A DNA stretch of 64,000 nucleotides, from positions 62,001-126,000 of the forward strand of contig JASLLL010000003.1 of assembly GCA_030747075.1 (NCBI GenBank). The letters are read 5' to 3'. The DNA comes from Gemmatimonadota bacterium (GTDB taxonomy: Bacteria; ARS69). Position numbers and translations under genes: made by a program. This document shows, one piece after another, positions 705 to 54,798 of this stretch. Each line of letters begins with the position of its first letter. The stretch's first letter is position 1. The notes beneath the pieces are model-generated. The model ran no database searches and had not been told where the DNA came from. It saw only the letters and a list, made by a program, of their open reading frames with translations.

Positions 705-1061
705 ATGAGCATCACGCTTGCGCGACTCCTTTTGTTGATGGTTCTTGCGGGGGCGATTTCCGTGGGGGCTGTGAGTTCTGTCCATGCGGAGGCTACTTCG
801 GGCGTCATGGCTGTGGGGGCCGGTTCAGAAGCTCCCGCCCCGCCTGCTGAAGTCCCCGGATTCCCCGCAGTGCTGTCCAAGTCCGACAACCAGGCTGATG
901 CCGGGGACAACATCGAAAGTCCCACCGGCTGGCTGGAGTTCGAAGACGACATGAATCATCCGAATGGGAACATGGTGGCCGTTCCGGAACCGGCGACGAT
1001 CGCTCTTTTAGGACTGGGGCTTGCCGGCCTTGGCGCAGCCCGAAGGCGTGCTCGGCGGTAG
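705..1061 (+). CDS. Small PEP-CTERM sorting-signal protein (exosortase substrate)
   Basis: This 118-residue secreted protein has a signal peptide (1-28, cleavage after VHA). Its mature part of about 65 residues is acidic and Pro/Ala-rich, without a known domain. The end is a textbook PEP-CTERM tail: VPEPAT at 93-98, a Gly/Leu-rich membrane segment (about 99-110), then AARRRARR. Exosortase is expected to process such tails after export and release or attach the protein at the surface, often as a glycoprotein linked to exopolysaccharide. The processing enzyme is encoded at 29089-29946. A GGAGG lies 12 nt before the ATG, which is rather far. It is the only PEP-CTERM protein I found here, and unusually small for the class. 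Confidence 0.85.
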   Translation: MSITLARLLLLMVLAGAISVGAVSSVHAEATSGVMAVGAGSEAPAPPAEVPGFPAVLSKSDNQADAGDNIESPTGWLEFEDDMNHPNGNMVAVPEPATIALLGLGLAGLGAARRRARR

Positions 1062-18818: not shown

Positions 18819-19420
18819 GAGAGGCTCTCAAGGCGATGGCCCGGGGAGTGTGCCGGGTGAGCATAATCCCGCGGTACTTGATCTACCGCATGGAGTGCAT
18901 TCTGGTCGACCCGGATCGGGCATTCCACGGCGTCAGTCAGGAAATGTCGCTGGTGCCGGGCGTAGTGGGGGAGTACCTGCGCCGGGAGTTTCTGCGTCTT
19001 TCGATTGACCGATGTTCGTCCGATTGCTGCATAGGGTTCGGGACGGTGCTGTCGAAGCGGGGCGCGCGCATCGGGAGACGGGTCTATGTCGGCACCCGCT
19101 GCAATCTGGGTCTGGTGGAGCTGGGTGACGATGCGCTGTTGGCGTCAGGAGTGGAGGTGATGTCGGGCGGGCGGCAACATACCTTCGAGGATGAGGAGAT
19201 CCCGGTTCGAGAGCAGGGAGGCCGATTCGAACGAGTCTGTGTCGGGCGGGACTCCTGGATTGGAAGCGGAGCGCTGGTCATGGCTGACATTGGTGACAAG
19301 TGCGTGATCGGAGCGGGAAGTGTCGTCAGGGACCCGGTGCCCGACGGGGGCATTGCGGTGGGTTCCCCCGCGCGGATTGTGGGGCGAAGGGGAGAGCGGA
19401 CGGAGTCGGAGGGAGCATGA
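18815..19420 (+). CDS. Hexapeptide-repeat acyltransferase (LbetaH, WcaF-like)
   Basis: This 201-residue protein carries left-handed beta-helix repeats from about 75 to 190 (IGFGTVLSKRGARIGRRVYVG, LGDDALLASGVEVMSGG, VCVGRDSWIGSGALVMADIGDKCVIGAGSVV). The end AVGSPARIVGRR is typical of maltose/WcaF-type O-acetyltransferases. It probably acetylates a sugar of the exopolysaccharide. The N-terminal 70 residues do not follow the repeat. GTG start coupled to the previous gene. Confidence 0.85.
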   Translation: MREALKAMARGVCRVSIIPRYLIYRMECILVDPDRAFHGVSQEMSLVPGVVGEYLRREFLRLSIDRCSSDCCIGFGTVLSKRGARIGRRVYVGTRCNLGLVELGDDALLASGVEVMSGGRQHTFEDEEIPVREQGGRFERVCVGRDSWIGSGALVMADIGDKCVIGAGSVVRDPVPDGGIAVGSPARIVGRRGERTESEGA

Positions 19421-20475
19421 CGGGAGAATCCCCCGCGCCCGTGAAATGGACTCGTCTGGCCAAGGGCGATGAGTCCCGCTGGGATGACTTCGCAGGTCGC
19501 GTGCCGGGGGCGACGCTCTATCATCGAGCGGGCTGGGCATCCGTGATTCAAGAGGCCTTTGGCCAGGAACCCATCTACCTGATCGCGGAGTCCAAGGGGC
19601 GAATCGAAGGGGTGCTCCCACTCTTCGCGTTCTCTCACTTCGTCTTCGGCAAGTACCTCGTGTCGATGCCCTTCCTGAATCGCGGGGGAATCCTGGCTGA
19701 AACGGACCGCGCCCGCCACGCACTCCTGGAGGGAGCGAAGACGCTGCTGCGGGAGACGGGTTCGGCCTACTGTGAGCTTCGGCATACGGAAGCAGAGGCC
19801 ATCGGAGGCCTTCCCGCCCGAACCGCCAAGGTGTCGATGGCTTTGACGCTGGACGCGGACCCCGAGCTCCTCTGGAAGCGAGTCGGGCCGAAAGTGCGGA
19901 ACCTGGTGCGCAAGGCGGAGCGGGCAGGACTGGAAGTTCGCGAAGGGCAGGGGGAGGAGGATCTGGCCACATTCCAGGAACTCTTCGCAGTCAACATGAG
20001 GGATCTGGGCACGCCGGTTTACTCCCCGGGCTTCTTCCGGGCGGTGCTGGGTGCTTTCGGCGACCACTGCCGACTGACGCTGGTGGAGCGGGATGGGGTG
20101 GCCGCCGCAGGGGGACTGTGCCTCCAGTACAATGGGTTTACGGAGATCCACTGGGCCGCGTCACGCCGCGAGTTCCGTCGCGATTCCCCCAATATGCTGC
20201 TCTACTGGGATGCCATCCGGGACGCCTGCGAGACGGGGCTGCGCACATTCTGTTTCGGGCGGTCCACCGAGGGATCGGGCCCGTACCGCTTCAAGCGCCA
20301 GTGGGGCGCGGAGCCCGTTCCGCTCCGGTGGGAGTACCTCCTTTCGGCCGGAGGGGGGCTTCCGGAGCTGAATCCGGACAATCCGCGCTTCCGGCTTGCC
20401 GTTCGCATCTGGCAGCGCCTGCCGCTGTCTGTCACCCGCATTCTGGGGCCTCCGATCGTGCGTCACCTCCCCTGA
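19417..20475 (+). CDS. FemAB-like protein, PEP-CTERM-system type (TIGR03019-like)
   Basis: This 352-residue protein has a double GNAT fold of the FemAB type. It shows TLYHRAGWASVIQEAFGQEPIYLIAE, FLNRGGIL, VGPKVRNLVRKAERAGLEV, then the second GNAT half GDHCRLTLVERDGVAAAGGL and NMLLYWDAIRDACETGLRTFCFGRSTEGSGPYRFKRQWGAEP. The FGRST-GPYRFKRQWG block is characteristic of the family seen only beside exosortase loci. FemAB enzymes use aminoacyl-tRNA to build peptide bridges; the role in this setting is unknown, possibly modifying the polymer or the anchored protein. It ends the first coupled gene run. Confidence 0.85.
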   Translation: MTGESPAPVKWTRLAKGDESRWDDFAGRVPGATLYHRAGWASVIQEAFGQEPIYLIAESKGRIEGVLPLFAFSHFVFGKYLVSMPFLNRGGILAETDRARHALLEGAKTLLRETGSAYCELRHTEAEAIGGLPARTAKVSMALTLDADPELLWKRVGPKVRNLVRKAERAGLEVREGQGEEDLATFQELFAVNMRDLGTPVYSPGFFRAVLGAFGDHCRLTLVERDGVAAAGGLCLQYNGFTEIHWAASRREFRRDSPNMLLYWDAIRDACETGLRTFCFGRSTEGSGPYRFKRQWGAEPVPLRWEYLLSAGGGLPELNPDNPRFRLAVRIWQRLPLSVTRILGPPIVRHLP

Positions 20476-20671
20476 GATCCGTCTCCCGCGGGCGGTCCGG
20501 GCAGCCCCAGGGACGCGTCGCGCGGCCGACGAAGTGCCCCCGGCTGCCAGACATATTCCTTGTCACCATGTTGGCGCGATTCTATCCTACCTCCGTTGTC
20601 GGGTGTGCGGATGGCGCGGCAGGGCGAGGGGGTGGCAACCCGGCACGGGAGTGCCCACGCAAGGTAGTGGC

Positions 20672-20718
20672 TTCCGGCGGGAGCTGGAACTGTGCTTCCG
20701 CGGGAGCTGGAACTGTGC
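20672..20718 (+). repeat. Tandem direct repeat, candidate enhancer site
   Basis: Two adjoining copies (20672-20695 and 20696-20718) share CGGGAGCTGGAACTGTGC and differ by one G. They lie about 140-190 nt before the sigma-54-type promoter at 20859, the usual distance for enhancer sites of sigma-54 activators. Function is inferred from position only. Confidence 0.6.
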
Positions 20719-20858
20719 AAGGCGTGAGCAACAGCACTCCCGATGTGGTCAGCATGCGGACAGCGGCTGACTCCCCCACGGCCTGAAAATCTGGCGATCG
20801 GCTGTCGGACTTGTGGTTCTTCAATGAGTTGGAGGTCTATGCGGCTTTGCACGCCAAC

Positions 20859-20873
20859 CGGCACTTTCCTTGC
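20859..20873 (+). promoter_or_regulatory. Sigma-54-type (-24/-12) promoter
   Basis: CGGCACTTTCCTTGC keeps GG and GC exactly 10 nt apart, with GGCAC and TTGC blocks matching the RpoN consensus except C for the first T. Transcription would start near 20885, 81 nt before the TTG start of the large secreted protein. The activator gene at 25559 lies just downstream of that target. Confidence 0.6.
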
Positions 20874-20965
20874 GTAGGGAGAGTTCGGCCGGACCGGGTC
20901 TGCGAGCCTCACTCGCGACGGATGGTCCCGAAGGTATGTGGCAGGTGGTTTGTGGAGGCCCCCCA

Positions 20966-23900
20966 TTGATTCGTCGAACTGAGCTCTGGATGGCGGCCGT
21001 CGGGACGGCGGTTTGTCTTGTGAGTGGAGGAATCGCGCGGGACGCTTCCGCTCTGGATGTTCCGCTGCGAATCCGTGAGACCGCAGGCGTCCCGCGTTCC
21101 GCGGAGATCGTCACTTCGGGTGTTCCCATTCCCCGGGGTGAGCTTCTCGACGAACAGCAAGCCGCCATGGGTGGGGTCGACGCGCAGTTCCGGTCGCTGG
21201 CCGAGTGGTCAGACGGGTCCGTGAAGTGGCTGCAGGTGTCGTTCCCGGCCACGGTTTCCGCCTATGGAACCGCGATCTATCAGCTCACCTCTGGAGCCGG
21301 CGATGCGCCGTCCGGCGTGCTCAGTGCGGTGGATGACGGTCAGACGGTGACCGTGAACACGGGCCCCCTCCGCTTCACTCTGAAACGCAACGGATTCAAC
21401 CTCTTCGACGAAGCCTGGATCGACCTCAATCAGGACGGCTCGTTTGCGGAGTCGGAGCGGCTGGTCTCTCCGGGGAGTTCGACCGGTTCCCGGGTCGTGG
21501 GCACCGATGGAGAGAACTACACATCCGCGAACGGGGTTCCCGCGACTCTTGAGGTGGAGGAAGCGGGGCCGCTGCGTGTGGTCATTCGATTTGAGGGCGT
21601 GCACTCGGGAACCGCAGGGGATCATCTGGACTACTCCGGCCGCATATACGCGTACCGGGGTCGAGAAGAGGTGCATGTTCGCTTTGCGGAGATCAATCGC
21701 ACCCCGACCGATACCTACAGCAACGGCGGGCAGCCGAAGTGTCGCTGGCTGGCTGGCGAAGGCCCGGTCGGAGGCTCGTCAGGGAGTCTTCAGATGGAGG
21801 ACCTCTCGCTCGTCACGCGGTTGAGCCTTTCGGGGAGCCCGAGCTTCGCGCTTCAGGGCGACCCCGCCGGAGGGATCGCATCGGGAGATCTCCTGTCGGA
21901 CGCATGGCTGTATCAGGATTCCAGCGGGGGCCAGTATTGGCAGGTGAGCGGCGGAACCACCTTCTCGGGCTACGAAATCCGACACGGGCAGACGCTTCTG
22001 GAAAGCGGATCCCGGGCGCAGGGCTTCGCCGACATCCATGACGGAACGCGCGGGCTGTCGGTCGCCATCCGTCACTTCTGGGAGAACTTCCCGGACAAGA
22101 TCATGGTCTCTCCGGACGGCACGGTCACGGTGGGTCTCTTCCCGGGTGATTTCTCGCTTCCGTTTGAACATCGTCCCGGGGAACGAAAGTCGCATTGGGT
22201 TCAGTACCACTTCCACGCCGGGGACGAAGTGGCCGGTGGCGTCGCCGCCTCCGCGCTTGCATTTCAGGAACCGCTCCGCGCGATGGCTCCTGCGTCCTGG
22301 TATTGCGACAGTCAGGCGCTCGACGATCTGGAACCTTACGACCCGGTTGCGTTCCCGGAGTACGAAGCGCACAACGGGTACGGGGCGGACGGCTACCTTT
22401 CGATTCGCGAGCAGTCTGACTTCTACGGCTGGCAGGACTTCGGAGATGTCTGGAGCGACTTTGAAGGAGGCGGGGCTCCGCCGAACACGAACAACGCGGC
22501 CAACAACCTGGAGTACGACTCCGGGTTCGCGTTCATTCAGCAGGCGCTTCGCACCACGGGCTTGAACGATGACCTGTCGGACAAGTGGTGGAAACTCGCG
22601 GCGGAGGGGAATGAGCATACCGCCGATGTGGACATTTACCATGTGCACACCGGTCCGCTTCCGTGGATGTGGGGAGGGATGTGGAATCACACCGGTCACG
22701 GCAAGAGCGGCTTTGATGATCCGCACCGAGGGGACAATCCCAACGCGGCGCACTCATGGAATCGGGGGATGCTCGCCTGGTACTACCTGACGGGGGATCG
22801 CGATGTCCTGGAGGGCGCGCTGGAAGTGGGAGAGAACATTACCTGGCGTGTGGAGAATGGGCCGGGGATGCCGGGTGCAAGCGGGACCGAGGATGAAGAG
22901 CGCGGCCCGGGACACGCGCTCCAGATCCTGACGGACATGTATCTCCTCACCTGGGATTCACGATACTACCAGGCGGCACACAAGTTGATCGCCGAGAGCC
23001 ACGCGGATACCAAGGAGTTTGTGCAGAGCCCGGGGTCGGGCACCTGGCGGTGCAAACCATGGATGATTGCGATTCTCATGCGCAACCTCGGTCGCTTTGT
23101 TGAGGCAATGGCCATCGAGCAGGGAACGGTGGAGCAGGAGGCCATCGATTCGCTCCTTGGGTATGCGGAGTTCATGGAGGCGCGCGCCTGGGTGGACAGG
23201 GATGCGGGAAGTCCCGGATTCTTTCACTATCAGGTGGAGGGGGACGGGACGAATATTCCCGGTGGCAACAATGTGAATATGTGGACGCTGAGGGCTTCGG
23301 ATGCGTTCACCTTCGCGGGTCGGCATGAGCCGGACCCTGTCGTGGCTCAACGGTATCGCGACATTGCCCGCGTGGGCTTCGAAGATGCTTCCGCGTACCC
23401 CTGGTGCTTCACCTGCCCGACTCATGAGTTCCTTCAGGCCAAGGTGCATCAGGTCGTGGCGGGCTCGGGACAGGAGTATATGCGGCAGGCTTCCTCGCAG
23501 GGGCCGTCGGATACCATTCCCCCGGGCGCAATCACGGACCTTGCGGCAGTGAGCGGACCGGGTGAGGGAGAGATCTCCCTGGCGTGGACTGCCACCGGCG
23601 ACGACGGGGTGGAAGGCCAGGCCATCAGCTATCTCGTGCGGCGCTCCGCGGGGCCGCTCCTCACGGCCGAAGACTGGTCGGACGCCACACCGGTTCCCGG
23701 GGCCCCCATTCCGGGGCAGGCCGGATCTGCGGAGAGCATGATCCTGACGGGTCTGGGAGGGGGAGAGGTCTGGCATGTGGGAATCCGCGCGGTGGATGAT
23801 GCGCTTCAGGTCGGGGATCTATCCAACTCGCCTTCCGCCCCGGCGGGAGCCGACATGACTGCGCCGACCATCAGCGACCTGTCCGCTCAGGAAGAAGTCC

Positions 23901-25339
23901 CCGGCACGCTGATCTTCCGTTGGAGCACGGATGAACCCGCGACCTCGGCGATCGAATGGGACCCGGCGTGGCCGGGGTCCGGAGATCTGGCCAATGTTGT
24001 GAGCGATGGTCTTCTGACGACTTTCCATGAACTTCAGGTTTCGGGGCTCAACGCCGGGACGACGGTTCACTACCGGAGCACTTCGGCCGACGCCTCCGGC
24101 AATGCGGACACCACGGATGTCTCGCAGATTACGGTGGCGGCGACGGATGCTGTACCCCCAGCCATCAGCGGGCTGGGTGCATCGGTAGACGGTACGGGCG
24201 AGAATCTCGTCGTGGTGTGGAATACGGACGAACCGGCTGACGGGCGCGTGGAGTATGGCGCGGATTCGTCCTGTACTTCCTCCACGGTGCTGGACCCTTC
24301 GTTGACGCTGGCGCACGCCGCAGTCGTCGCGGGCGTGGCTCCCGGGGAGACCGTCTACTTCCGCGTGTTGTCCGCGGATGGTTCGGGGAATGTCTCGGTC
24401 TCTGCGGTCCAGGCTTTCACAATCACCCAGGATGAGGAGCCACCCCAGATCAGCACGCCCGAGTACACCTTCACGCTGAGTCAGGCTCGGATGGACTTTC
24501 TCACGACGGAACCCTCCTGGGGGGAGATCCGTTGGGGAGTGGGCTCTCCCGCCGGGAACACACTTCCGCTCGGTTCCGCCGTAGCGCCGTCGCTCTCCCA
24601 CTCGGTGATTCTGGGGGGGCTGATGGACGGCTTGACCTACCTCTTCGAGATTGAGCTTTCGGACTTGTCCGGGAACATCTCTCTTCTCGGCGGGAGCTTT
24701 GCGTTGCCGGGCGGACCGGGCGTGGACACCACCCCACCGGGCATTCCTCTGGGACTTGAGATCACCGCCTTCACGGAAGAGGACGGAGTGGCGCTTCGAT
24801 GGGCGCCGAACTCCGAGGCGGACCTGTTCGGGTATCATGTGTATCGCCGGGTCCACCAGCCCGGCTCCAATCAGGGTTGGTCCATTCTCAATGCCGAAGT
24901 GACCGGGGACACCGCCTGGGGAGATGAGGGTCTGGTGGCCGGCACCTCCTATGAGTATGCGATCACGGCGCGGGATTCCGGGAGCAACGAGAGTGGAAGA
25001 AGCCCGGGAGTGGTGTTCGATCCCGGGGATTGGCTGGACCTCCGGACGCTGGGGCAGAGTCGCCCGAATCCATTCACGCCCCAGGCAGGCACCTCGATCA
25101 CCTTCCAGGTTCCCGCCGGCGCGGGGCCTGATCCGCAGCGCACCGTCCTTGCGGTATTCGACCTGAACGGAAGACGCGTCCGCACCCTCTTCGCTGAAGA
25201 CGCGGCCGCGGGTGATGAGAATACGGTCCGGTGGGATGGATGCGACGGCGAAGGGAATGCACTGGCCTCTGGCGTCTACTTCTCCCGGCTTCGCATCGGC
25301 CAGGACATCCACTCAAGGAAGATGGTCCTCCTGCGCTGA
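20966..25339 (+). CDS. Very large secreted YetA/PcRGLX-like protein with FN3-like repeats and FlgD-like C-terminus
   Basis: 1457 residues. A signal peptide (about 1-26, ending DASA) is followed by a RIFT-barrel/YetA-like region: ETAGVPRSAEIVTSGVPIPRG and SLAEWSDGSVKWLQVSF. A long alpha/alpha-type domain has WMWGGMWNHTGHGKSGFDDPHRGDN and HSWNRGMLAWYYLTGDRDVLEGA (to about 860). Five FN3-like domains follow, each opening near DTIPP, DMTAP, DAVPP, DEEPP or DTTPP. The end is a FlgD-like domain (SRPNPFTP, VFDLNGRRVRTLF, SGVYFSRL, KMVLLR). The YetA family includes exo-rhamnogalacturonan lyases, so polysaccharide cleavage or binding outside the cell is likely; the exact substrate is unknown. I chose TTG at 20966 because GGAGG lies 7 nt upstream and the signal peptide begins there; an ATG at 20936 is the alternative. 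Confidence 0.8.
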   Translation: MIRRTELWMAAVGTAVCLVSGGIARDASALDVPLRIRETAGVPRSAEIVTSGVPIPRGELLDEQQAAMGGVDAQFRSLAEWSDGSVKWLQVSFPATVSAYGTAIYQLTSGAGDAPSGVLSAVDDGQTVTVNTGPLRFTLKRNGFNLFDEAWIDLNQDGSFAESERLVSPGSSTGSRVVGTDGENYTSANGVPATLEVEEAGPLRVVIRFEGVHSGTAGDHLDYSGRIYAYRGREEVHVRFAEINRTPTDTYSNGGQPKCRWLAGEGPVGGSSGSLQMEDLSLVTRLSLSGSPSFALQGDPAGGIASGDLLSDAWLYQDSSGGQYWQVSGGTTFSGYEIRHGQTLLESGSRAQGFADIHDGTRGLSVAIRHFWENFPDKIMVSPDGTVTVGLFPGDFSLPFEHRPGERKSHWVQYHFHAGDEVAGGVAASALAFQEPLRAMAPASWYCDSQALDDLEPYDPVAFPEYEAHNGYGADGYLSIREQSDFYGWQDFGDVWSDFEGGGAPPNTNNAANNLEYDSGFAFIQQALRTTGLNDDLSDKWWKLAAEGNEHTADVDIYHVHTGPLPWMWGGMWNHTGHGKSGFDDPHRGDNPNAAHSWNRGMLAWYYLTGDRDVLEGALEVGENITWRVENGPGMPGASGTEDEERGPGHALQILTDMYLLTWDSRYYQAAHKLIAESHADTKEFVQSPGSGTWRCKPWMIAILMRNLGRFVEAMAIEQGTVEQEAIDSLLGYAEFMEARAWVDRDAGSPGFFHYQVEGDGTNIPGGNNVNMWTLRASDAFTFAGRHEPDPVVAQRYRDIARVGFEDASAYPWCFTCPTHEFLQAKVHQVVAGSGQEYMRQASSQGPSDTIPPGAITDLAAVSGPGEGEISLAWTATGDDGVEGQAISYLVRRSAGPLLTAEDWSDATPVPGAPIPGQAGSAESMILTGLGGGEVWHVGIRAVDDALQVGDLSNSPSAPAGADMTAPTISDLSAQEEVPGTLIFRWSTDEPATSAIEWDPAWPGSGDLANVVSDGLLTTFHELQVSGLNAGTTVHYRSTSADASGNADTTDVSQITVAATDAVPPAISGLGASVDGTGENLVVVWNTDEPADGRVEYGADSSCTSSTVLDPSLTLAHAAVVAGVAPGETVYFRVLSADGSGNVSVSAVQAFTITQDEEPPQISTPEYTFTLSQARMDFLTTEPSWGEIRWGVGSPAGNTLPLGSAVAPSLSHSVILGGLMDGLTYLFEIELSDLSGNISLLGGSFALPGGPGVDTTPPGIPLGLEITAFTEEDGVALRWAPNSEADLFGYHVYRRVHQPGSNQGWSILNAEVTGDTAWGDEGLVAGTSYEYAITARDSGSNESGRSPGVVFDPGDWLDLRTLGQSRPNPFTPQAGTSITFQVPAGAGPDPQRTVLAVFDLNGRRVRTLFAEDAAAGDENTVRWDGCDGEGNALASGVYFSRLRIGQDIHSRKMVLLR

Positions 25340-25489
25340 CCGGGAAGCCCCCGTCCTTTCACGAGGCGGTACCCCGTCCTCGGCACCCTCTTCGCAATGG
25401 CTTCGTGCAGATTGCACGCCCCGCCGCTTCGCTGCTGGCTGACCTTGAACGACTCTTGCGGTCGCTGCACATCTGTGGCGCGTCGGAAA

Positions 25490-25504
25490 TGGCATGGTTC
25501 GTGC
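25490..25504 (+). promoter_or_regulatory. Weak sigma-54-like promoter before the sigma-54 activator
   Basis: TGGCATGGTTCGTGC keeps GG and GC 10 nt apart and a good TGGCA block, but the -12 block is GTGC instead of TTGC. It is 55 nt before the ATG at 25559 and would suggest autoregulation. Confidence 0.3.
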
Positions 25505-25558
25505 GATGCGGGAGGTGTCTGGAAGCGCAACCACGCATCGACACCGGAGAGGATGGGG

Positions 25559-26980
25559 ATGAAGCGAATCCTGTATGTGGAATCGGACGCGAAGTCACGC
25601 GCCCGAACGGTAGAAGCACTGCGCACGCTGCAGTGTGAAGTCACTTCCCTCAGCACGACGGGTGAGGCGGTCCACGCGTTGGAGAACGACCCGCCGTCGC
25701 TGGTCATGGCGGTGCGGAACGAGGCGAGCGAGGACGACCTCCGCCTGATTGAGCATGCGCATCGCCTGCGAAGCGGCGTACCCGTTCTGGTGCTGGCGAG
25801 AAGGGGAAGCACCCGCGGGGCCATCGCGTTCATGGATGCCGGAGCGTACGACTATGTCGCAAAGCCGGACAGCGATAACGCGATTCGTGAGATGGCCGAG
25901 AACATACTTCGAAGCGCGGGGGCCTTGGCAGTGCCCGACGCAGGGCTCCTCCCCGAAGCGGGAGACGACGGACCAGGGGCGATCGTAGGGCGCAGCGCGG
26001 AGATGATCGAGATATTCAAGATGATCGGCAGGATCGCGAAGTCCGACGCGGCCGTCCTCCTGCAAGGGGAGAGCGGAACCGGGAAGGAACTCGCTGCGCG
26101 GACGATCCATGAGAACAGCCGCCGCCAGGGGAGACCCTTTGTAGCGATCAACTGTGCAGCCATTCCGGAGACCCTTCTGGAAAGCGAACTGTTCGGGCAT
26201 GAGAAGGGGGCTTTCACCGGTGCGGTGGGCATGCGTCGCGGGAAGTTCGAACAGTGCGACGGCGGGACCATCTTCCTGGACGAGATCGGCGACATGAGCC
26301 TGGCGACTCAGGCGAAGATCCTCCGCGTGCTGCAGGAGAAGACCTTCGAGAGAGTCGGTGGCGAGGAGAGCCTGACCACCGATGCCCGCGTGGTCACGGC
26401 GACGAACAAGAGCCTTGTGAAGGAGATGCGGAAGAACGAGTTCCGGGTTGATCTCTTCTATCGGCTGAAAGTGGTCTCGTTGTTCCTGCCGCCACTCAGA
26501 CAGAGGCATGGAGACATTCGCATTCTAGCGGAGCACTTCCTTCGCAAGTACGCGGAAACCGGCCGACAGCCGATGCGAGGGATTACTCGCGCAGCCCTGG
26601 AGATGCTCCAGGGAAGTCCGTGGGAAGGGAATGTCCGCGAACTCGAGAATGCCATACAGAGCGCGGTTGTGCTAAACAGGACAGGAGTACTGGACAGAGA
26701 GGACTTCCCGTTTCTCCGGCAGGCGGTGGGTGGCGAATCCATCGACTCGAATCCGTTGGAGAGTCTTCAGCGGGAGGTGGCTCGCGCGTCGCGTGCACTC
26801 TTGCGCACAGAGCGTGCAACCGAGGGGCAGGGAGTCTACCGAGCATGCATGGATCTTGTAGAACAGACTCTCGTGACGGAAGCACTTCGTCACTGCGACG
26901 GGAACCAGGTGCGTGCGGCGCGAGTCCTCGGAATCAGTCGCAACACCCTGCGGAGTCGGATGCACTTCACGCGGGGATGA
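25559..26980 (+). CDS. Sigma-54 activator with degenerate receiver (PEP-CTERM PrsR-like)
   Basis: 473 residues: receiver-like domain (1-120), AAA+ sigma-54 domain (about 145-375) and Fis-type helix-turn-helix at the end (EALRHCDGNQVRAARVLGIS). The AAA+ part is intact: GESGTGKE, GAFTGA in HEKGAFTGAVG, and GGTIFLDEIGDM. The receiver is not: the phosphorylation Asp position is Val52, the acidic pair is reduced to Glu8 and Asp10, and the Thr/Ser position is Ala80; only Lys102 remains. It resembles TIGR02915, the regulator found with exosortases, but cannot be phosphorylated in the normal way. No PrsK-like kinase lies nearby. The ATG at 25559 has GAGAGG 6 nt upstream. A sigma-54-type promoter drives the large gene just upstream, a likely target. 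Confidence 0.85.
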   Translation: MKRILYVESDAKSRARTVEALRTLQCEVTSLSTTGEAVHALENDPPSLVMAVRNEASEDDLRLIEHAHRLRSGVPVLVLARRGSTRGAIAFMDAGAYDYVAKPDSDNAIREMAENILRSAGALAVPDAGLLPEAGDDGPGAIVGRSAEMIEIFKMIGRIAKSDAAVLLQGESGTGKELAARTIHENSRRQGRPFVAINCAAIPETLLESELFGHEKGAFTGAVGMRRGKFEQCDGGTIFLDEIGDMSLATQAKILRVLQEKTFERVGGEESLTTDARVVTATNKSLVKEMRKNEFRVDLFYRLKVVSLFLPPLRQRHGDIRILAEHFLRKYAETGRQPMRGITRAALEMLQGSPWEGNVRELENAIQSAVVLNRTGVLDREDFPFLRQAVGGESIDSNPLESLQREVARASRALLRTERATEGQGVYRACMDLVEQTLVTEALRHCDGNQVRAARVLGISRNTLRSRMHFTRG

Positions 26981-27020: not shown

Positions 27021-28235
27021 GTGAAGATACTCTTTGTTTCACACAGGCCTCCCGGGCCTCCCGACAAGGGCGACAAGATCCGATCGCATCACCTGCTGAA
27101 GAGGCTTGCCGCGCGCCATCGCGTGGAGGTGGCTTGCCTGTACGACGAGGACTCCGAACTGGAGACGATGCGCGAGTCGTGCTCCTGGGCGGCGGAACTG
27201 ACGGCCCGGCGGCGGCCACGGGCTGAGGGGATCGTCCGAGGCTTGATGGCGGCGGCTTCAGGACGATCGCTGACCTCAGGCTACTTTCATTCAACAGAGC
27301 TTTCCCGTTCGGTGGACCGGATTCTTCAAGAACGCACGCCCGATGTTGCCCTGGCGTACTGTTCCGGGATGGCCGGGTATCTCAAGGCGTTCGACGGCGC
27401 ACGCGTGCTCGACCTGGTGGATGTCGATTCCGAGAAGTGGCGGCAGTACGCGTGTCGAGCGCGAGGAGGGAAACGGCTGGTCTATGCTCTGGAAGCCCGG
27501 CTCCTGCGCGCGGATGAGCAACGCCTGGTGGGCGAGTTTGATCGGAGCATTGTGGTCTCGGATGCGGAACGCGACCTGCTTGCCGGGTTCTGTGAAGAGA
27601 GCCGCATCGATGTGGTTCCGATGGGAGTGGATCTCGCCAGGCTTCAACGCGGCTGCGCCCGACCGGGGACGGCGGACCTTGTGTTTGTGGGGGCGCTCGA
27701 CTATCTCCCCAACTCGGAGGGGATCACCGCGTTTGCGCGCGAGGTCTTTCCTGCGGTACGCCGCCGGTTCCCAACGGCGCGCCTGCGCATCGTGGGACGG
27801 CGTCCAGGAGCGGGAGTCCGGGCCTTGAGCGGTCTCCCCGGTGTTGAGGTTGCGCCGGATGTTCCGGATGTCCGCAACTGGCTCTGGGGGGCGGCCATCG
27901 CGGTGGTGCCGCTTCGGATCGCGCAGGGAGTGCAGAACAAGGTGCTGGAGGCAATGGCTGCCGGAGTGCCGGTCGTGGCTTCGCACACAGCCACTCGCGG
28001 GATCGATGCGGTGGACGCCGAACACCTTCACATTGCGGAGGACTCCGCCGGGATGGTGGCAAAGATCACGCATCTACTGGAGAATCCCATCGAGGCGGAT
28101 GCGATGGCGAAGCGCGCGCTGGAGTTCGTTCGCGCGCACCACGATTGGGACACCGCCGCGCTGGCTTACGAGCGGGTCCTTCAGAGCGCACTGGAGCAAC
28201 GAGGGCCGTCGAAGAGAGAAGGTGGCGCTTGCTGA
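27021..28235 (+). CDS. GT-B glycosyltransferase, exosortase-associated (TIGR03087-like)
   Basis: This 404-residue GT1/4-like enzyme has the N-terminal motif ILFVSHRPPGPPDKGDKIRSHHLLKRLA, a hallmark of the sugar transferase family tied to PEP-CTERM/EpsH loci. It also has LDLVDVDSEKWRQYA, VGALDYLPNSEGITAFAREVFP and PLRIAQGVQNKVLEAMAAGVPVVAS. The start is GTG at 27021 with GGAG upstream. It overlaps the deacetylase gene by 7 nt. Predicted to add a sugar to the lipid-linked glycan in the cytoplasm. Confidence 0.88.
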   Translation: MKILFVSHRPPGPPDKGDKIRSHHLLKRLAARHRVEVACLYDEDSELETMRESCSWAAELTARRRPRAEGIVRGLMAAASGRSLTSGYFHSTELSRSVDRILQERTPDVALAYCSGMAGYLKAFDGARVLDLVDVDSEKWRQYACRARGGKRLVYALEARLLRADEQRLVGEFDRSIVVSDAERDLLAGFCEESRIDVVPMGVDLARLQRGCARPGTADLVFVGALDYLPNSEGITAFAREVFPAVRRRFPTARLRIVGRRPGAGVRALSGLPGVEVAPDVPDVRNWLWGAAIAVVPLRIAQGVQNKVLEAMAAGVPVVASHTATRGIDAVDAEHLHIAEDSAGMVAKITHLLENPIEADAMAKRALEFVRAHHDWDTAALAYERVLQSALEQRGPSKREGGAC

Positions 28236-29092
28236 ACGCCATGACCGTGGATGTGGAGGAGTGGTTCCAGGTGTCGAACTTCGACGCGCTGGTGGATCGG
28301 TCGGCCTGGGACTCGTATCCGTCACGAGTCGTGGACTCCACGCGGACCTTGCTGTCACTGCTTGAGATGCGAGACACGCGGGCTACCTTCTTCGTGTTGG
28401 GTTGGGTGGCGGAGCGTCAGCCGGACCTTGTGGCGGAGATTGCCGATGCCGGGCATGAGGTGGCCAGCCACGGTTACGGGCACGAGTTGGTGTACCGCCT
28501 CTCGCCGGAGGCCTTTGCGGAAGATCTGACCCGCTCGCTGGATGCCCTGATGCGCTGTGGGGTCGCCAGCGTGGAAGGATACCGCGCGCCGAGTTTCAGC
28601 ATGGATGCGCGAACCCGCTGGGCCTGGGATGTTCTGGCCGAGCGGGGGATCAAGTTCGATTCGAGTATCTACCCGGTGCGTCACCCGCGCTACGGGACGC
28701 CTGAGTTTTCGCGGTTCCCGGTCACTCTTCGCACGCCGGAAAGACAGACGGTGCGGGAGTTTCCGCTGACCACGCTCCGAGTGCTCGGCAACAATGTCGG
28801 AGCGAGCGGCGGCGGCTACCTTCGCGTGTTCCCCCCTGCGATCATCCGCACTGCCATCACGCAAGCGAATCGTGCGGGACATCCGGCGGTGGTGTATGTG
28901 CATCCATGGGAACTGGATCCTGCGCAGCCTCGTCTACCCGTGCGGGGCCTGGGAAGAGTGACGCACTACACGAACCTCGCCGCGACCTATGATCGACTGG
29001 ACGATCTCCTTGCGCGCTTCCGGTTCGGTACGATGACCGACGCGCTCAGGGAAGCCGCTGGGGTGGAGGCTCCAGTCGTTGAGGTGCCATGA
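28229..29092 (+). CDS. Polysaccharide deacetylase, exosortase-associated (TIGR03006-like)
   Basis: This 287-residue NodB-fold enzyme starts NAMTVDVEEWFQV (catalytic Asp), then DTRATFFVLGWVAERQP, HEVASHGYGHELVYRL (metal His pair), GYRAPSFSMD and the DUF3473-like tail VVYVHPWELDPAQPRL. It is expected to remove N-acetyl groups from the exopolysaccharide. No signal peptide is visible, as in other members of this subfamily. I use TTG at 28229 because AAGGTGG lies close before it; the ATG at 28241 is possible. Confidence 0.88.
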   Translation: MLNAMTVDVEEWFQVSNFDALVDRSAWDSYPSRVVDSTRTLLSLLEMRDTRATFFVLGWVAERQPDLVAEIADAGHEVASHGYGHELVYRLSPEAFAEDLTRSLDALMRCGVASVEGYRAPSFSMDARTRWAWDVLAERGIKFDSSIYPVRHPRYGTPEFSRFPVTLRTPERQTVREFPLTTLRVLGNNVGASGGGYLRVFPPAIIRTAITQANRAGHPAVVYVHPWELDPAQPRLPVRGLGRVTHYTNLAATYDRLDDLLARFRFGTMTDALREAAGVEAPVVEVP

Positions 29093-29946
29093 TGACGGAT
29101 CGGGTCCGGGTCGGAGTCCTTCTTCTCTCCCTTGTGGGACTCTATGGCACGCTGATTCCCGACCTGGTGGGTGACTGGATGCGGTCGGGGGATTATTCGC
29201 ACGGGTTCCTCATTCCTGTTGTCAGCGTGTGGCTTCTCTGGGATCGACGGGAGAAGGTCTCCGCCATCCCCTCGCGTCCGTTCTTCCCGGGGGCGCTTGT
29301 TGTGGCCGGGGCCGTCATGCAGATGCTGATCGGTGTCGCGAGCGCGGAACTCTTCCTGCAGAGAAGTTCGCTGGTCCTGTTCCTGATCGGTTGGACGCTG
29401 TTGGTCTGGGGCGTGCCTCGCCTTCGTGCATTGTGGTTCCCGTTCGCGTATCTGCTCTTCATGATCCCTCTGCCTGCGGTGGTCTGGTACGCCATGGCAT
29501 TCCCGCTGCAGTTGCTGGCATCGCAGATCACGGCGACGGCCTTGACGATGGCGGGCATGGAAGCCGTGCGCCTTGGGAATGTCATTCAGCTGCCGGGCTG
29601 CACGCTGGAGGTTGCCGACGCCTGCAGCGGGTTGCGGTCGCTGGTCGCGCTCTCCGCTCTGGCGGCGTTGCTGGCGGAGGGAAGTCTTGTGCCTGGACGA
29701 GGACCGGGGCGCCCTGTGGGGCGCATGATGATGTTCCTCGCGGCAGTTCCGGTGTCCATCGTGGCGAATGTGTTGCGTGTGGGTTTCTCTGCGGGAGTGG
29801 CGGCGGCATGGCGCACCGATGTGGTCAGCGGAGGCCTTCATGAGCTGTTGGGTTTGCTTCTTTTCGTGCTCGCCGGGGGAATGCTCCTGGCACTTCGGGA
29901 GGGACTCGCTTGGGTCGAAGAGACTCCGCGACGCTGGTCGCAATAG
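29089..29946 (+). CDS. Exosortase (EpsH-type transpeptidase-like protease)
   Basis: This 285-residue integral membrane protein has about eight helices. The three catalytic residues are present and in order: Cys179 in ADACSGLRSL, Arg230 in SIVANVLRV and His251 in SGGLHELLG. Exosortases cut PEP-CTERM tails on the outer face of the inner membrane, in the manner of sortases. Its likely substrate is the protein at 705-1061. The subtype (XrtA, B, D or other) is not clear from motifs alone. ATGA couples it to the deacetylase, and it overlaps the EpsI gene by 37 nt. Confidence 0.93.
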   Translation: MMTDRVRVGVLLLSLVGLYGTLIPDLVGDWMRSGDYSHGFLIPVVSVWLLWDRREKVSAIPSRPFFPGALVVAGAVMQMLIGVASAELFLQRSSLVLFLIGWTLLVWGVPRLRALWFPFAYLLFMIPLPAVVWYAMAFPLQLLASQITATALTMAGMEAVRLGNVIQLPGCTLEVADACSGLRSLVALSALAALLAEGSLVPGRGPGRPVGRMMMFLAAVPVSIVANVLRVGFSAGVAAAWRTDVVSGGLHELLGLLLFVLAGGMLLALREGLAWVEETPRRWSQ

Positions 29947-47325: not shown

Positions 47326-48312
47326 CTATCGGAGGACGCGTACGAGGGCCACTTCAGCCTCGGGGAGGGCCGGGCAGTGAACGAAGTAGACTCCACAGGC
47401 TGCCGGATTCCCCAGGGAAGTCCGTCCATTCCAGAGGAATGTGGTCTCCTCCCCCCTCGCCGTCGGCAGAAGCCTGACAACCCGCCGCCCCACCACATCG
47501 ACAACATCCGCATGGACAGCCTGTTCCGTGGAGGCGGCAAACACAATGCGGACTTCCCCTCCCCTTCCTGCGCGGAACGGATTCGGCGAGACCAGCGAGA
47601 CGGTGCTCTCGTCGGGAGCCACCCTTTGGTTCAGAAGCCGGTCGAACCAGGGCACCAGTCCGGCCACTTCCGTCGGAAGAGGAATGTCGGCGTTCTCGAT
47701 CCCGGGTGAGGAGAGCGCCTCGGGAGGCCCCAGCAGGAAGCGATAGTCCTCGGCGAAGATCTCATGCGGTCGATCCCGGTGGGATGCGGCATGGTGATAT
47801 CGACCGGAGTGCAGCTGGCGAAGGTCCAGGTACTCCTCCCACAGCGTGCTGCCATCCGGGGCAAGTGCGTGCTGCACTATGTGCCCGAGTTCGTGTGCGA
47901 TCGTGGCCGCAAGATGCTCGGGATGCACCTTCCGGAGTCCGGGAGAGAGAAAGACGATGTTCCCTTCACAGCTGGACCGGAGAGTGCCGCGACGCGGATA
48001 CGGGAGAACCACGATGCGTGCGTCGAGGGAGGCTACGCCCGCAGGCGCGGAGGCAATCGCCTCGCGAACCAGCCCGATCTCGAACGGATGAAACGAGCCG
48101 TCCCCCAGAGTGGAGAGTTCGCTGTCCAGAGGATCGGTAACAAGCGGCCAGGAGCGGCCATTCATCACCAGGCACAAGGTCCCGTCGATGAGGGTCGTGT
48201 GTTTGCTCAGGACCTCCTGTGCGTCGATGAGCCGGAGAGAGGCACTTGCGGGGGGAACGGCCCACAGAACGGCGAGCGTAAGCAGGCTCGCGAGGTTGCA
48301 TCTCCTCATCAT
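47326..48312 (-). CDS. Secreted HExxH metallopeptidase with FlgD-like C-terminus
   Basis: 328 residues. Signal peptide (1-25), catalytic domain with His140-Glu141-Leu-Gly-His144 (IAHELGHIVQH), and a downstream RPHEIFAEDYRFLL whose Glu184 or Glu188 could be the third zinc ligand (gluzincin-like). The C-terminal 90 residues are FlgD-like (VSPNPFRAGRGGEVRIVF, GRRVVRLL, CGVYFVHC). I cannot name the peptidase family. GGAGG lies 9 nt before the ATG. Expression should depend on cyclic-di-GMP through the riboswitch at 48346-48440. Confidence 0.78.
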   Translation of the reverse strand: MMRRCNLASLLTLAVLWAVPPASASLRLIDAQEVLSKHTTLIDGTLCLVMNGRSWPLVTDPLDSELSTLGDGSFHPFEIGLVREAIASAPAGVASLDARIVVLPYPRRGTLRSSCEGNIVFLSPGLRKVHPEHLAATIAHELGHIVQHALAPDGSTLWEEYLDLRQLHSGRYHHAASHRDRPHEIFAEDYRFLLGPPEALSSPGIENADIPLPTEVAGLVPWFDRLLNQRVAPDESTVSLVSPNPFRAGRGGEVRIVFAASTEQAVHADVVDVVGRRVVRLLPTARGEETTFLWNGRTSLGNPAACGVYFVHCPALPEAEVALVRVLR

Positions 48313-48440: not shown

Positions 48441-48547
48441 GGACCCGTGGTGAGTCCACCGTCTGCTACCGCAAGGCTCGTGCCGGGTTGAGTGCAGGGG
48501 GTCTCTTCGCACAGCGTGGTCAAACGCAAGAATCACTCAAGGCTGCA

Positions 48548-51421: not shown

Positions 51422-52813
51422 TCAGCCGCCGGAAGCGGCGGAGTCGGCGGCTTCCATCTTCTTCAGCTTCTCCCGAAGGGTTTGTCGAGAGATGCCCAGG
51501 AGCTTGGCTGCGCGGGACTTGTTTCCCTCGCACCATTCCAGCGTGAGGGCAATGTGTTCCAACTCCATGACGCGCAACGGTCGGGGTGAGAACTTCGGGG
51601 GTTGGGCCGGTGTGGACGAACTCGACGCGGTGCTCTCCTCGTCCAGATCCAGCGGAAGGTGACTCGCGAGAATCAGATCTGTCGATTGCAGGAGTATGGC
51701 GCGTTCGATCACATTCTTCAGTTCCCGCACATTGCCCGGCCACGCATAGGCCTCCAGAAGCGCGCGGGCTTGCGGTGTGAAGCCGCGCACCGAGCGTTTC
51801 AGTTCTCGATTGAACTGCTGGACGAAGTAGCTGGCCAGCACGAGCACATCCTCCGCCCTTTCGCGAAGTGGAGGGACCTGGACGAGGACCACATTCAACC
51901 GGAAGTAGAGATCGTCACGAAAGCGACCGTCCTGAGCTTCGCGCTTGAGATCTCGATTGGTGGCGGCCACGATGCGAACATCCACCTCGATGTCCCTTGT
52001 TCCGCCGACCTTTCGGAAACTCTTGGTCTCCAGCACGCGAAGCAGACGCGCCTGCAAACCCAGCGGCATCTCCCCAATCTCATCGAGAAACAGCGTTCCG
52101 CCGTCGGCGATTTCCAGAAGTCCCCGCTTGCTCTCCCGTGCATCGGTGAACGCTCCCTTTTCATATCCGAAGAGTTCACTCTCCAGAAGAGTCTCCGGGA
52201 GTCCCGCGCAGTTGATGGTGAGGAACGGCTTGCGCTCCTCGGGGAACGACAGGAAGTGCACCGCCTTGGCAACGAGTTCCTTCCCTGTGCCACTCTCCCC
52301 TTGAATGAGAACCGTAGATGTGGGGCTGTTCGCCACTTTCGCGATGATGTCCGCGACCTGATTCATCGAGCGTGAGTTCCCCAGAATGAAACGATCCGAA
52401 TCCCGATTCCCGACACGAATCTGCCGCACGGTCTGGGCTTTTCGGGAAATGTCGATGTTGACCATGGCCTGTTCGACCAGTTCGAGCACTTTGCGAAGCT
52501 CGAAAGGTTTGTTCAGGAAATAGTACGCACCCGTCTCCAGGGCGTTGGGCGCGGCGGTGTCGGCATCGTAGGCGGACATCATGATGACGATGGTCTCCGC
52601 ATGGTGGTGCCTGATTTCGCGGAGGATGTCCATGCCGTTACGCCCCGGGAGACGCACATCGAGAAACACCAGATCCCGAGAGTGCTGCGCCAGCGCAGCC
52701 AGACCGGCTTCGCCGCTTTCCACGCCCTCCACGGAGTGACCGTGCTCCTCCAGAGCCAGGCGCAGGGAAGTCCGGAGATTGCGTTCGTCATCTACGATCA
52801 GGATGTCGGCCAC
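51422..52813 (-). CDS. NtrC-like response regulator with GAFTDA variant
   Basis: 463 residues: receiver (Asp8-Asp9, phospho-Asp52 in LVFLDVRLPG, Lys in FLNKP), AAA+ domain (QGESGTGKE, YEKGAFTDARE, GGTLFLDEIGEM) and Fis-type helix-turn-helix (EWCEGNKSRAAKLLGISRQTLREKL). The sigma-54 contact loop is GAFTDA in place of GAFTGA. It overlaps the upstream histidine kinase by 16 nt and is surely its partner. Confidence 0.92.
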   Translation of the reverse strand: MADILIVDDERNLRTSLRLALEEHGHSVEGVESGEAGLAALAQHSRDLVFLDVRLPGRNGMDILREIRHHHAETIVIMMSAYDADTAAPNALETGAYYFLNKPFELRKVLELVEQAMVNIDISRKAQTVRQIRVGNRDSDRFILGNSRSMNQVADIIAKVANSPTSTVLIQGESGTGKELVAKAVHFLSFPEERKPFLTINCAGLPETLLESELFGYEKGAFTDARESKRGLLEIADGGTLFLDEIGEMPLGLQARLLRVLETKSFRKVGGTRDIEVDVRIVAATNRDLKREAQDGRFRDDLYFRLNVVLVQVPPLRERAEDVLVLASYFVQQFNRELKRSVRGFTPQARALLEAYAWPGNVRELKNVIERAILLQSTDLILASHLPLDLDEESTASSSSTPAQPPKFSPRPLRVMELEHIALTLEWCEGNKSRAAKLLGISRQTLREKLKKMEAADSAASGG

Positions 52814-54798
52814 GGTTCACCTCCACTCGGGCGAGGATGGTCCTCCGCCGGGATGAGAGGCAGCAGCGCCGTGGCTCGGCTCGCGCCCTCGGGAGAAGTT
52901 TCCATCCGCAGCGTGCCCCCATGTCTTCGCAGAATGTGCTGGCAGACAGGGAGCCCGAGTCCGGTGCCCCCCGACTTCGTTGAGAAGAACGGATCGAAGA
53001 CTCTCTCTCGAATCGTCAGCGGGACTCCGGGGCCGTCATCTTCGACCACCACACGGACTGCCGGAAGATCTTCGGTGGAATCATCGAAGATCAGCAGGCG
53101 AACCTCCCCCCCCTCCGGCGAAGCCTCTACTCCGTTCAGCGTCAGGTTCAGCACAACTTGCAGGATCTGGTCGCGATCCGCAAGAGGACAGGGCACCTCC
53201 GGGGACGCCTTCACGGAGACCGTCACTCCCCGCTTCGCGGCACGGCCTCCCACCAGATGGGCGGCCCGGTGGAGAATCGAGGAGAGGTCCACCGGTTCAA
53301 GATCGGGTTCCGGGGGCTCAGCGAACATCAGAAGACTCCCCACAATGCGATCCAGCCGGTCCGTCTCCTCCACGATGATGCTGGCCAGTTCCGCATCCTT
53401 CCCGGAGTGCGCCAGACGGGAGAGGAGCACCTCCGCCGAAGTGCGTATTCCCGCAAGCGGGTTTCGGATTTCATGGGCCACGGCGGCCGAAAGGCGCCCC
53501 AGAGCGGCCAGGCGATCGGCGCGCCGAACCTCCTCCTCGGCTTCCACTCGACAGGAGAGGTCGGTGACCAGCGCGAGAACACCCCGTTTGCCGTCGTCTT
53601 CGGGCAGGGCGGAAGTGCGAACGGAGACCGGGACCGGTCGATGACCCGCCCGCGTGAGGTAGGTCTCCACCTCCGCGGAAGGTCCCGGGTCCGCTTCTGC
53701 GCGGGGTGGGCGGAGAAGCGGGATGAAGTGCAGGTTGTCGACAAAGACCTCTTCCAGCGAGCGCCCCACCGGATCGTCGGAAGGGACCCCGAGAATCCGG
53801 CAAAGCGTGGGGTTGGCCAGGACTACCCGGTCCCTGGCGTCGATCTTCAGCAGGCCGCCTCGCAGCGTGGACAGGATTCGATTGTTCTGCTGCTGCGAGG
53901 AACGGAGAGCCTCTCGGGAGGCTTGCGAACGGACTCCATCGGAGACGAGCGCGAGGAGTTTCCGGGTGAACGGCGCTTCTCCTTCAAGAAGAGGGTCCCG
54001 GCCGCTGTCGAACAGAAGGAGAAGACCCGTGACTATCGGATCCTCTCGCAGCAACTTCCAACAGGTCGGGCCGTCGGGCGAAGGGGGAGGCTGATGCGCT
54101 GAGGAAGCATCCAGAGAGACGGGGGCCAGATCCGCGGCCAGCGCCTCCGGGATCTGCCAGGCACCCGACACCTCGTAGGAGTCCCCCCCCCACCGACACA
54201 CGGCCGCCGCCCGGGCACCGAGCGCACGCCCGACGACCTCGGCGAGCAGTGGCCAGAATGTGGCAATCGGTCCCGGGGCAGCCAGGAAGCGCGCGACATC
54301 CTGAAGGCGGGTCGCCTCGGTCAGTTCCCGGGAGAGTGCCCGGTTCTCCGAGCGGAGATCTTCCGACTGCTCCACGACAATCCGGGCGAAGCGGCGTCGT
54401 TCTGCAATGACGCGATCATTGGACTGCTCAAGTTCTCGAACGAACTCGTCCGCCTGGGCGAGATGGCGTCGGCGCTCGAGAATGTCCGTCATGACGGCAA
54501 GAACCTCGGTCCCGTCACTTCCCCAGAGAATGGCGCCGCGCGTCGAGGGACCCGACGCGGCAAACACCACGATCGATTCGCCAGCGTGGGCTTGTGAGGG
54601 ACGAAAGGCCATCCACTGGTCGAGGCCGGGCGATTCCTCGTCAATCAGAAGGACGCCCGCGTAAGGCATGGGGACTTGCTTCAGTGTGCGGTAGACATGG
54701 AGCTGTGCGCGATCTGCGAGAAGGGGAGTCCAGTTGGCGGCGGATCTGCGGAGGTCGGCATGGGGGGTGACGACAGCAACCTGATCACGATCGGTCAT
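52798..54798 (-). CDS. Cytoplasmic sensor histidine kinase (NtrB-like, with PAS)
   Basis: 666 residues without membrane helices. The N-terminus (1-110) is a degenerate receiver-like fold (VAVVTPHADLRRSA, GVLLIDEESPG). A coiled coil follows (115-165), a GAF-like domain (about 170-310), PAS (about 320-420, ILSTLRGGLLKIDARDRVVLANP), then HisKA with His442 in VAHEIRNPL and HATPase (VVLNLTLNGVEA, EDDGPGVP, GTGLGLPV). It should sense an internal signal and phosphorylate the regulator at 51422. Coupled by ATGA to the PilZ gene upstream. Confidence 0.9.
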   Translation of the reverse strand: MTDRDQVAVVTPHADLRRSAANWTPLLADRAQLHVYRTLKQVPMPYAGVLLIDEESPGLDQWMAFRPSQAHAGESIVVFAASGPSTRGAILWGSDGTEVLAVMTDILERRRHLAQADEFVRELEQSNDRVIAERRRFARIVVEQSEDLRSENRALSRELTEATRLQDVARFLAAPGPIATFWPLLAEVVGRALGARAAAVCRWGGDSYEVSGAWQIPEALAADLAPVSLDASSAHQPPPSPDGPTCWKLLREDPIVTGLLLLFDSGRDPLLEGEAPFTRKLLALVSDGVRSQASREALRSSQQQNNRILSTLRGGLLKIDARDRVVLANPTLCRILGVPSDDPVGRSLEEVFVDNLHFIPLLRPPRAEADPGPSAEVETYLTRAGHRPVPVSVRTSALPEDDGKRGVLALVTDLSCRVEAEEEVRRADRLAALGRLSAAVAHEIRNPLAGIRTSAEVLLSRLAHSGKDAELASIIVEETDRLDRIVGSLLMFAEPPEPDLEPVDLSSILHRAAHLVGGRAAKRGVTVSVKASPEVPCPLADRDQILQVVLNLTLNGVEASPEGGEVRLLIFDDSTEDLPAVRVVVEDDGPGVPLTIRERVFDPFFSTKSGGTGLGLPVCQHILRRHGGTLRMETSPEGASRATALLPLIPAEDHPRPSGGEPWPTS

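Follow-up and report, generated by a model that had tools for sequence, protein, structure and literature searches.

A conserved candidate sigma-54 promoter upstream of a giant secreted protein gene, and a putative autoregulated activator of an exosortase operon, in a Gemmatimonadota bacterium

In the 64,000 nucleotides of a Gemmatimonadota genome analysed here (the window), a -24/-12 element at 20859–20874 on the forward strand precedes the gene of a giant secreted protein, and the next gene encodes an NtrC-type activator (25559–26980, forward strand). The explanation that we find best for these elements jointly, and that we hold to be likely, is that the promoter works, that the tandem repeat upstream of it (20670–20718) is probably an upstream activator site, and that the 25559 protein is chiefly an autoregulator, with the giant gene maybe as a second target. 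A sigma-54 promoter would thus drive a secreted protein with PcRGLX domains and a FlgD-like tail from a TTG start at 20966, and the repeat would be bound by one of the 17 activators of the genome. The 25559 protein, as a dimer, would bind a TTGCA-N3-TGCAA-like palindrome ending 67–84 nt upstream of its own -24/-12 element, and would activate its own gene together with the glycosyltransferase-deacetylase-exosortase operon downstream.

The giant gene (20966–25339, forward strand; protein scanned from 20990) codes for PcRGLX (YetA-like) domains 1 and 2, a fibronectin-type domain and a FlgD-like C-terminal domain (PF19501, PF21345, PF00041 and PF13860), with both PcRGLX models matched above their cut-offs (PF19501 at 29.0 bits, PF21345 at 54.3 bits). 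Its TTG start was placed by eye, because GGAGG lies just upstream and the frame then resembles a signal peptide by eye. The protein was not among the matches of the PEP-CTERM model TIGR02595, and near its C-terminus a FlgD_ig domain stands in place of a C-terminal PEP-CTERM segment. Upstream, a FemAB-family XrtA/PEP-CTERM-associated protein is encoded at 19417–20475 on the forward strand (TIGR03019, 353.5 bits, cut-off 260.35); this gene overlaps its own upstream neighbour by 4 nt and is followed by a 490-nt spacer before the giant gene.

Five genomes of one family, each belonging to a different genus, were compared: that of the window (G000) and four relatives (G001 to G004). The giant gene stands at this place in only two of them, the window's genome and G001, whose contig matches JAGQIB010000125.1 (“Gemmatimonadetes bacterium isolate HKST-UBA01”) without a difference in the 16,277 bases that were compared. 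The G001 ortholog is full length (53% identity over 12–1448 of 1449) and lies between the same neighbours, the FemAB gene and the activator gene. In G003 another gene, close behind FemAB, occupies this position, and G002 encodes, some 6 kb before its activator, a secreted protein related in the C-terminal half only. The latter gene has a possible -24/-12 element, GGGCATGTTTTTTGCA (L086:6499, 10/12, where chance would give about 0.018 such sites in 400 nt), and the 320 nt upstream of it contain neither the activator-box core GCANNNTGC nor a close match to the repeat piece, both of which are described below. A paralogue of the giant gene on contig C37 of the window's genome begins right after another gene, and scanning of its upstream DNA gave no -24/-12 site of at least 9/12 near its start.

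A near-consensus sigma-54 promoter before the giant gene was the starting point of the original prediction, and such an element is indeed present. CGGCACTTTCCTTGCG carries GG and GC at -24/-12 spacing, and at 20860–20873 it contains the core GGCAC-N5-TTGC (GG-N10-GC with GGCAC and TTGC) with 9 of 9 bases matched. The extended sigma-54 consensus is TGGCACG-N4-TTGCW, from which the element differs by 3 mismatches. Since the window contains 80 sites with at most 3 mismatches to this consensus versus 85 expected, “near consensus” on its own carries little weight. Exact cores number 2 in the window versus 0.53 expected, and 29 genome-wide versus 32 for the reversed control pattern. By count, the giant-gene promoter motif by itself is no better than chance.

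These counts, equal to chance, are what would be seen if the match were a coincidence and the giant gene used another promoter, and a sigma-70-like pair at 20560–20588 (9/12, versus 0.0 in shuffles) could provide one. We consider such a coincidence very improbable, as the case for the -24/-12 promoter is made by place and conservation and not by motif count. The sigma-70-like pair lies about 380 nt before the giant-gene start with a terminator-like site (20790–20809) in between, and 0 counterparts of it were found before the G001 ortholog. Moreover, the cores of this genome are enriched at promoter positions according to our simple codon-based gene caller, on which this comparison rests: 12 of the 29 are intergenic versus a background of 13.5% (p=2e-4), and 8 of the 29 are both intergenic and no more than 200 nt from a sense start, versus 2.8% (p=1e-6). 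With the giant-gene site excluded, 11 of 28 cores are intergenic and 7 of 28 are intergenic with a same-strand start within 200 nt.

The strongest argument against coincidence is that the element is conserved, in the corresponding position, in a second genus. The promoter footprint CCGGCACyTTCCTTGCGTA is kept in 18 of 19 bases in G001 (1/1 full-length ortholog at this place), where the spacer reads CCGGCACCTTCCTTGCGTA against CCGGCACTTTCCTTGCGTA in the window, and the distance from promoter to start is similar (93 nt in the window and ~115 nt in G001). It is also the best ungapped match between the two spacers, scoring 16, whereas the runner-up scores 10 on the same strand and 12 on the opposite one; a score of 16 was reached by 6 of 3000 dinucleotide shuffles, of which it was not demanded that they hit the site that had been named beforehand, as the real match does. 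The opposite-strand match (CTCGCGACGGAT, 12/12, score 12) was examined as a signal and set aside as within chance, with 253 of 3000 same-strand shuffles reaching 12. MAFFT alignment of the two spacers missed the common promoter because the spacer lengths differ, and it was ungapped matching that found it. For calibration, we made the comparison for two further pairs of orthologs that have promoters of this kind: in one pair the promoter came out as the top shared segment, with a score of 12 that the highest shuffle also reached, and in the second pair it did not. RpoN is encoded once in the genome. Judged from this pattern of conservation, the predicted -24/-12 promoter of the giant gene is, with good confidence, a real one.

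Sites of the giant-gene type with at most 2 mismatches occur 26 times in the five genomes versus 14 for the reversed control; 17 are inside genes, 7 stand before a called gene (2 of these being the giant-gene promoters) and 2 are neither, and among the 26 we recognised no common regulon. The only other exact core of the window (48471–48484, reverse strand) is some 150 nt upstream of a gene at 47326–48312 on the same strand, whose product is likely secreted with a C-terminal end that is FlgD-like by eye, so that both window cores precede genes of that kind. Separately, a -24/-12 element CGGCACAGGSCTTGC is common to G000 and G002 (L025 and L103, both reverse-complemented) before a MglA-like GTPase gene, named by eye, and the best shared segment of these two loci scored 12, the maximum of 100 shuffles. 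In G004, TGGCACTTCCCTTGCGT at L112:1501 precedes a fliP-like gene (by eye), and an identical 17-mer in the window's genome (C4:4291, reverse strand) precedes a different gene.

Two copies of 23–24 nt had been placed 140–190 nt upstream of the promoter, and this description held: a head-to-tail repeat with units of 24 nt and 23 nt occupies 20670–20718 on the forward strand, 142–190 nt upstream of the promoter GG, making its copies candidate upstream activator sites. Within it are 19-nt perfect copies at 20677–20695 and 20700–20718, with a start spacing of 23. The repeat is not spread over unrelated places, no further copies being present in the 2.67-Mb genome at up to 2 mismatches; at 3 mismatches there are three matches, each lone, and the reversed pattern gives 2. 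The end of copy 2, GGAACTGTGCAA (20709–20720, forward strand), is identical in 11 of 12 bases to GGAACTGTTCAA before the G001 ortholog, and this piece, GGAACTGTKCAA, lies at -257 from the start in the window and at -260 in G001. As evidence this shared 12-nt piece is weak, the chance of such a match being p 0.089 anywhere and 0.01 within 30 nt of the expected place. In the five genomes, the piece followed by a -24/-12-like site 115–145 nt on was found three times (reversed control 0); two of these are the giant-gene promoters, and the third (G002:C22:56458), with no called gene after it, was taken as chance.

Because the repeat piece is shared at the same distance, the tandem repeat is plausible as an activator site for the giant gene. 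Could it instead be a chance duplication without a role, the promoter being controlled via some other upstream site? The copies stand head to tail and differ by one inserted base, which fits a recent duplication, and no duplication was found in the G001 spacer, where the best match is 12/19. Nonetheless, the position of the repeat is one where activator sites would be expected, and both spacers contain the end of its second copy at one distance from the start; we regard a duplication without function as less probable than an activator site. The sigma-54 activator domain has 19 matches in the genome, 17 of them near full length, and the predicted activator of the repeat would be one of these.

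NtrC-family activators consist of a receiver, an AAA+ domain and a Fis-type HTH, and act from a palindromic site with TGCA-type half sites located upstream of the -24/-12 promoter. The 25559 protein shows the same layout (receiver, AAA+ domain with GAFTGA, Fis-type HTH; PF00158 at 234.1 bits and PF02954 at 45 bits), yet it lacks the phospho-acceptor Asp and its palindrome is shorter. The receiver domain scores just over the cut-off (PF00072, 32.9 versus 30.2 bits), and the position of the phospho-acceptor Asp is occupied in the five orthologs by V (window), E (G001), G (G004), G (G002) and R (G003), so that this feature of a two-component response regulator is missing; the other two activators of the window (genes at 38025 and 51422) retain the Asp. 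All four relatives have an ortholog, one each at E below 1e-100 and 58–61% identical, and the HTH is strongly conserved across the five. The statement that this is the only GAFTGA-intact activator of the window is literally true, the others having GSFTDA (38025 gene) and GAFTDA (51422 gene), although GAFTDA is counted among the variants that would keep activity (PMC4641369). In the titles and abstract openings of the open-licence papers listed by our searches, no mention of this activator or its box was found.

Upstream of the activator gene lies the palindrome GTGCAGATTGCAC (25405–25417), the predicted box of the activator at its own promoter. Its conserved sequence GCANNNTGC, the core of a TTGCA-N3-TGCAA-like (GCA-N3-TGC) palindrome, is present exactly once in the 230-nt upstream region of each of the 5 orthologs, at -141 to -162, compared to a background of 0.28 per kb. 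A perfect palindrome falls in the interval in 3 of the 5 genomes (shuffle null: mean 0.14, maximum 3 in 2000), the motif and the interval having been chosen after the alignment was seen; the G001 palindrome is imperfect. Downstream of the box, a degenerate -24/-12 element TGGCATGGTTCGTGCG (25490–25505, forward strand, 9/12) lies 69 nt before the ATG of the window's activator, and the activator promoters of the four relatives read TGGCACGGAANCTGC(A/T). The -24/-12 element is 63–70 nt before the start in 5/5 genomes, and the end of the box is 72, 67, 84, 74 and 74 nt from the promoter in G000 to G004. When the palindrome and the promoter were combined in one pattern, TGCANNNTGCN{64,94}TGGCAN7TGC, 3 matches were obtained in the five whole genomes, all 3 upstream of activator orthologs, versus 2 for the reversed control, so that it is the places and not the count that constitute evidence; the other two genomes were missed because their palindromes are variants of it. 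The activator-type promoter with at most 1 mismatch gave 19 matches versus 20 for the reversed pattern, and the 7 exact ones comprise the 4 activator promoters of the relatives and 3 sites elsewhere in the window's genome.

About 40 nt after the activator gene begins a gene for a PEP-CTERM/XrtA-system glycosyltransferase (27021–28235, forward strand, with a GTG start that we infer; TIGR03087, 363.9 bits, cut-off 316.65, scanned from 27018). It is followed on the same strand by genes for an XrtA-system polysaccharide deacetylase (28241–29092, with a putative ATG start; TIGR03006, 332.4 bits, cut-off 276.2, scanned from 28145) and an exosortase (29089–29946; PF09721 at 202.2 bits and TIGR02602 at 178.4 bits, both over cut-off). 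The exosortase matches these general models, and on the XrtA-specific model TIGR03109 it reaches 172 bits against a cut-off of 208. With the three genes standing behind the activator, the activator promoter would serve an exosortase operon. The classical arrangement of an activator site and a sigma-54 promoter points to autoregulation, and the 25559 activator looks autoregulated on these grounds. The evidence thus favours a regulon made up of the activator and the exosortase operon, to which the giant gene may belong as an extra target.

Sites of another type, TTGGCACGGATTCTGC, recur in the window's genome on contigs C29, C41 (twice) and, as a variant, C48, and their flanking bases are also alike. 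Of the loci compared (L125:1501, L130:1501, L136:561 and, reverse-complemented, L138:1501, all in G000), two of four have a called gene behind the site. Both of these genes are secreted-looking by eye, and the sites may represent a second sigma-54 regulon.

The original prediction went further and proposed a local regulon of the activator and the YetA-like protein, in which the neighbouring activator would act on the giant gene by binding to the tandem repeat. Parts of this proposal stood, as the promoter is kept, a piece of the repeat is shared, RpoN is single, and the giant gene and the activator are adjacent in both genomes having the giant gene here. In addition, the best activator-box match in the window spacer, TGGAACTGTGCAA, falls inside repeat copy 2 with 10.0 bits (p 0.037 versus single-base shuffles). 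What did not stand is a shared site, nor is the duplication itself present in G001. The five boxes score 14.9–18.6 bits on a weight matrix built from those same boxes, the best score in the G001 spacer is within chance (5.4 bits, p 0.49), and GCANNNTGC is missing from both giant-gene spacers. Furthermore, the activator is found in 5/5 genomes, in 3 of which no full-length giant gene lies beside it, and sixteen other activators are available in the genome. As the palindrome is absent from both giant-gene spacers, control by the 25559 protein would be possible but would proceed without a shared site; with adjacency in favour and the missing box against, we consider direct control of the giant gene by its neighbour, and thus a two-gene regulon, rather unlikely. 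Our preferred reading remains that the 25559 protein acts chiefly on its own promoter.

A relation to PEP-CTERM genes was also considered. In Proteobacteria, most of the PEP-CTERM genes surveyed (99 of 167) have an activator motif with TTTACA at its end, followed by a spacer and a -24/-12 element (PMC1569441). The spacer of this PEP-CTERM box averages 62.8 nt with a range of 32–92 and motif 1 is sometimes repeated, and the phylogenetic profile of the box is matched by those of the activator PrsR, the kinase PrsK and PrsT (PMC1569441). Among the species examined in this 2006 founding survey, the sigma-54 PEP-CTERM box was reported only in Proteobacteria (PMC1569441). In our set, TIGR02595 gave 12 PEP-CTERM matches; 7 were examined, 5 below the curated cut-off were left out, and the L145 locus gave no PEP-CTERM ORF. 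Upstream of the five small PEP-CTERM genes (705–1061 in the window, one each in G001 and G003, and two in G002), a -24/-12 element of at least 9/12 was found in 0/5. The larger PEP-CTERM gene of G004 (1/1) has one, TGGTACGACGCTTGCA, about 55 nt before the inferred start as counted by hand on the translation. For the clear PEP-CTERM gene of the window itself, the link to -24/-12 elements before PEP-CTERM genes, which had been put forward as a check, thus did not hold. Upstream of this gene (705–1061, forward strand), a sigma-70-like TTGACG/TATAGT pair can be discerned by eye, and similar small PEP-CTERM genes exist in 3 of the 4 relatives.

That the local activator belongs to a PrsK/PrsR PEP-CTERM regulon is, in our judgement, most improbable. 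An exosortase/EPS setting with a sigma-54 promoter would suit such a membership, as would the spacing of activator site and promoter, which is comparable (PMC1569441). Nevertheless, on the PrsR model TIGR02915 the 25559 protein reaches 361.7 bits where the cut-off is 502.6, and it ranks below the window's 51422 activator; it is also devoid of the phospho-acceptor Asp. TTTACA was found in 0/7 promoter regions in both orientations; this hexamer is the only part of motif 1 that was scanned, the full 17-nt motif being shown in a figure (PMC1569441). The small PEP-CTERM genes without -24/-12 elements likewise speak against it. A scan of six nearby genes (19417, 18815, 27018, 28145, 29089 and 30560) detected no kinase family, and a gene that is histidine kinase-like by eye lies 26 kb away, adjoining the 51422 activator. 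It is worth mentioning that this second activator (51422–52813, reverse strand), which has an intact receiver Asp and reaches 399.8 bits on the PrsR model, below cut-off but the higher of the two, overlaps the kinase-like gene (52798–54798, reverse strand), and together they are the more PrsR/PrsK-like pair of the window.

The arrangement at the 25559 gene resembles the PrsR-PrsK regulon (PMC1569441) in having an activator motif, a spacer (here 67–84 nt) and a -24/-12 element, a Fis-type activator and an exosortase/EPS context. It differs in its likely targets, namely the activator-exosortase operon and a giant, non-PEP-CTERM secreted protein, in that the activator has a pseudo-receiver and is not PrsR by score, and in that the box is TTGCA-N3-TGCAA-like and without TTTACA. 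A further parallel is pepA of Aquincola tertiaricarbonis, an RpoN-dependent gene with a mapped -24/-12 promoter, TGGCAC / CTGCTT (PMC9850573). There too a -24/-12 element precedes the gene of an exopolysaccharide-linked secreted protein, although pepA encodes a PEP-CTERM protein, belongs to a proteobacterium and had its promoter mapped experimentally (PMC9850573). In our reading the locus varies a known theme, sigma-54 control of exosortase/exopolysaccharide loci, its activator having a pseudo-receiver and scoring too low for PrsR.

Perhaps, and we suggest this only tentatively, the exosortase/EPS operon of this so far little-sampled lineage possesses a dedicated sigma-54 switch of its own, formed by an orphan activator with a pseudo-receiver that amplifies itself by way of a palindrome conserved in the five genera; beside it, some members would have gained a giant surface protein, not of PEP-CTERM type, as a second sigma-54 target. 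Control would then be exerted on the sorting machine and on another class of exoprotein, unlike in Proteobacteria, where it is exerted on the sorted PEP-CTERM proteins. For an activator without the usual phosphorylation residue, a predicted binding site is now concrete. It has been proposed that sigma-54 centrally controls the cell exterior (PMC3162934), and a separate solution that differs in its activator, its DNA box and its targets would agree with this proposal.
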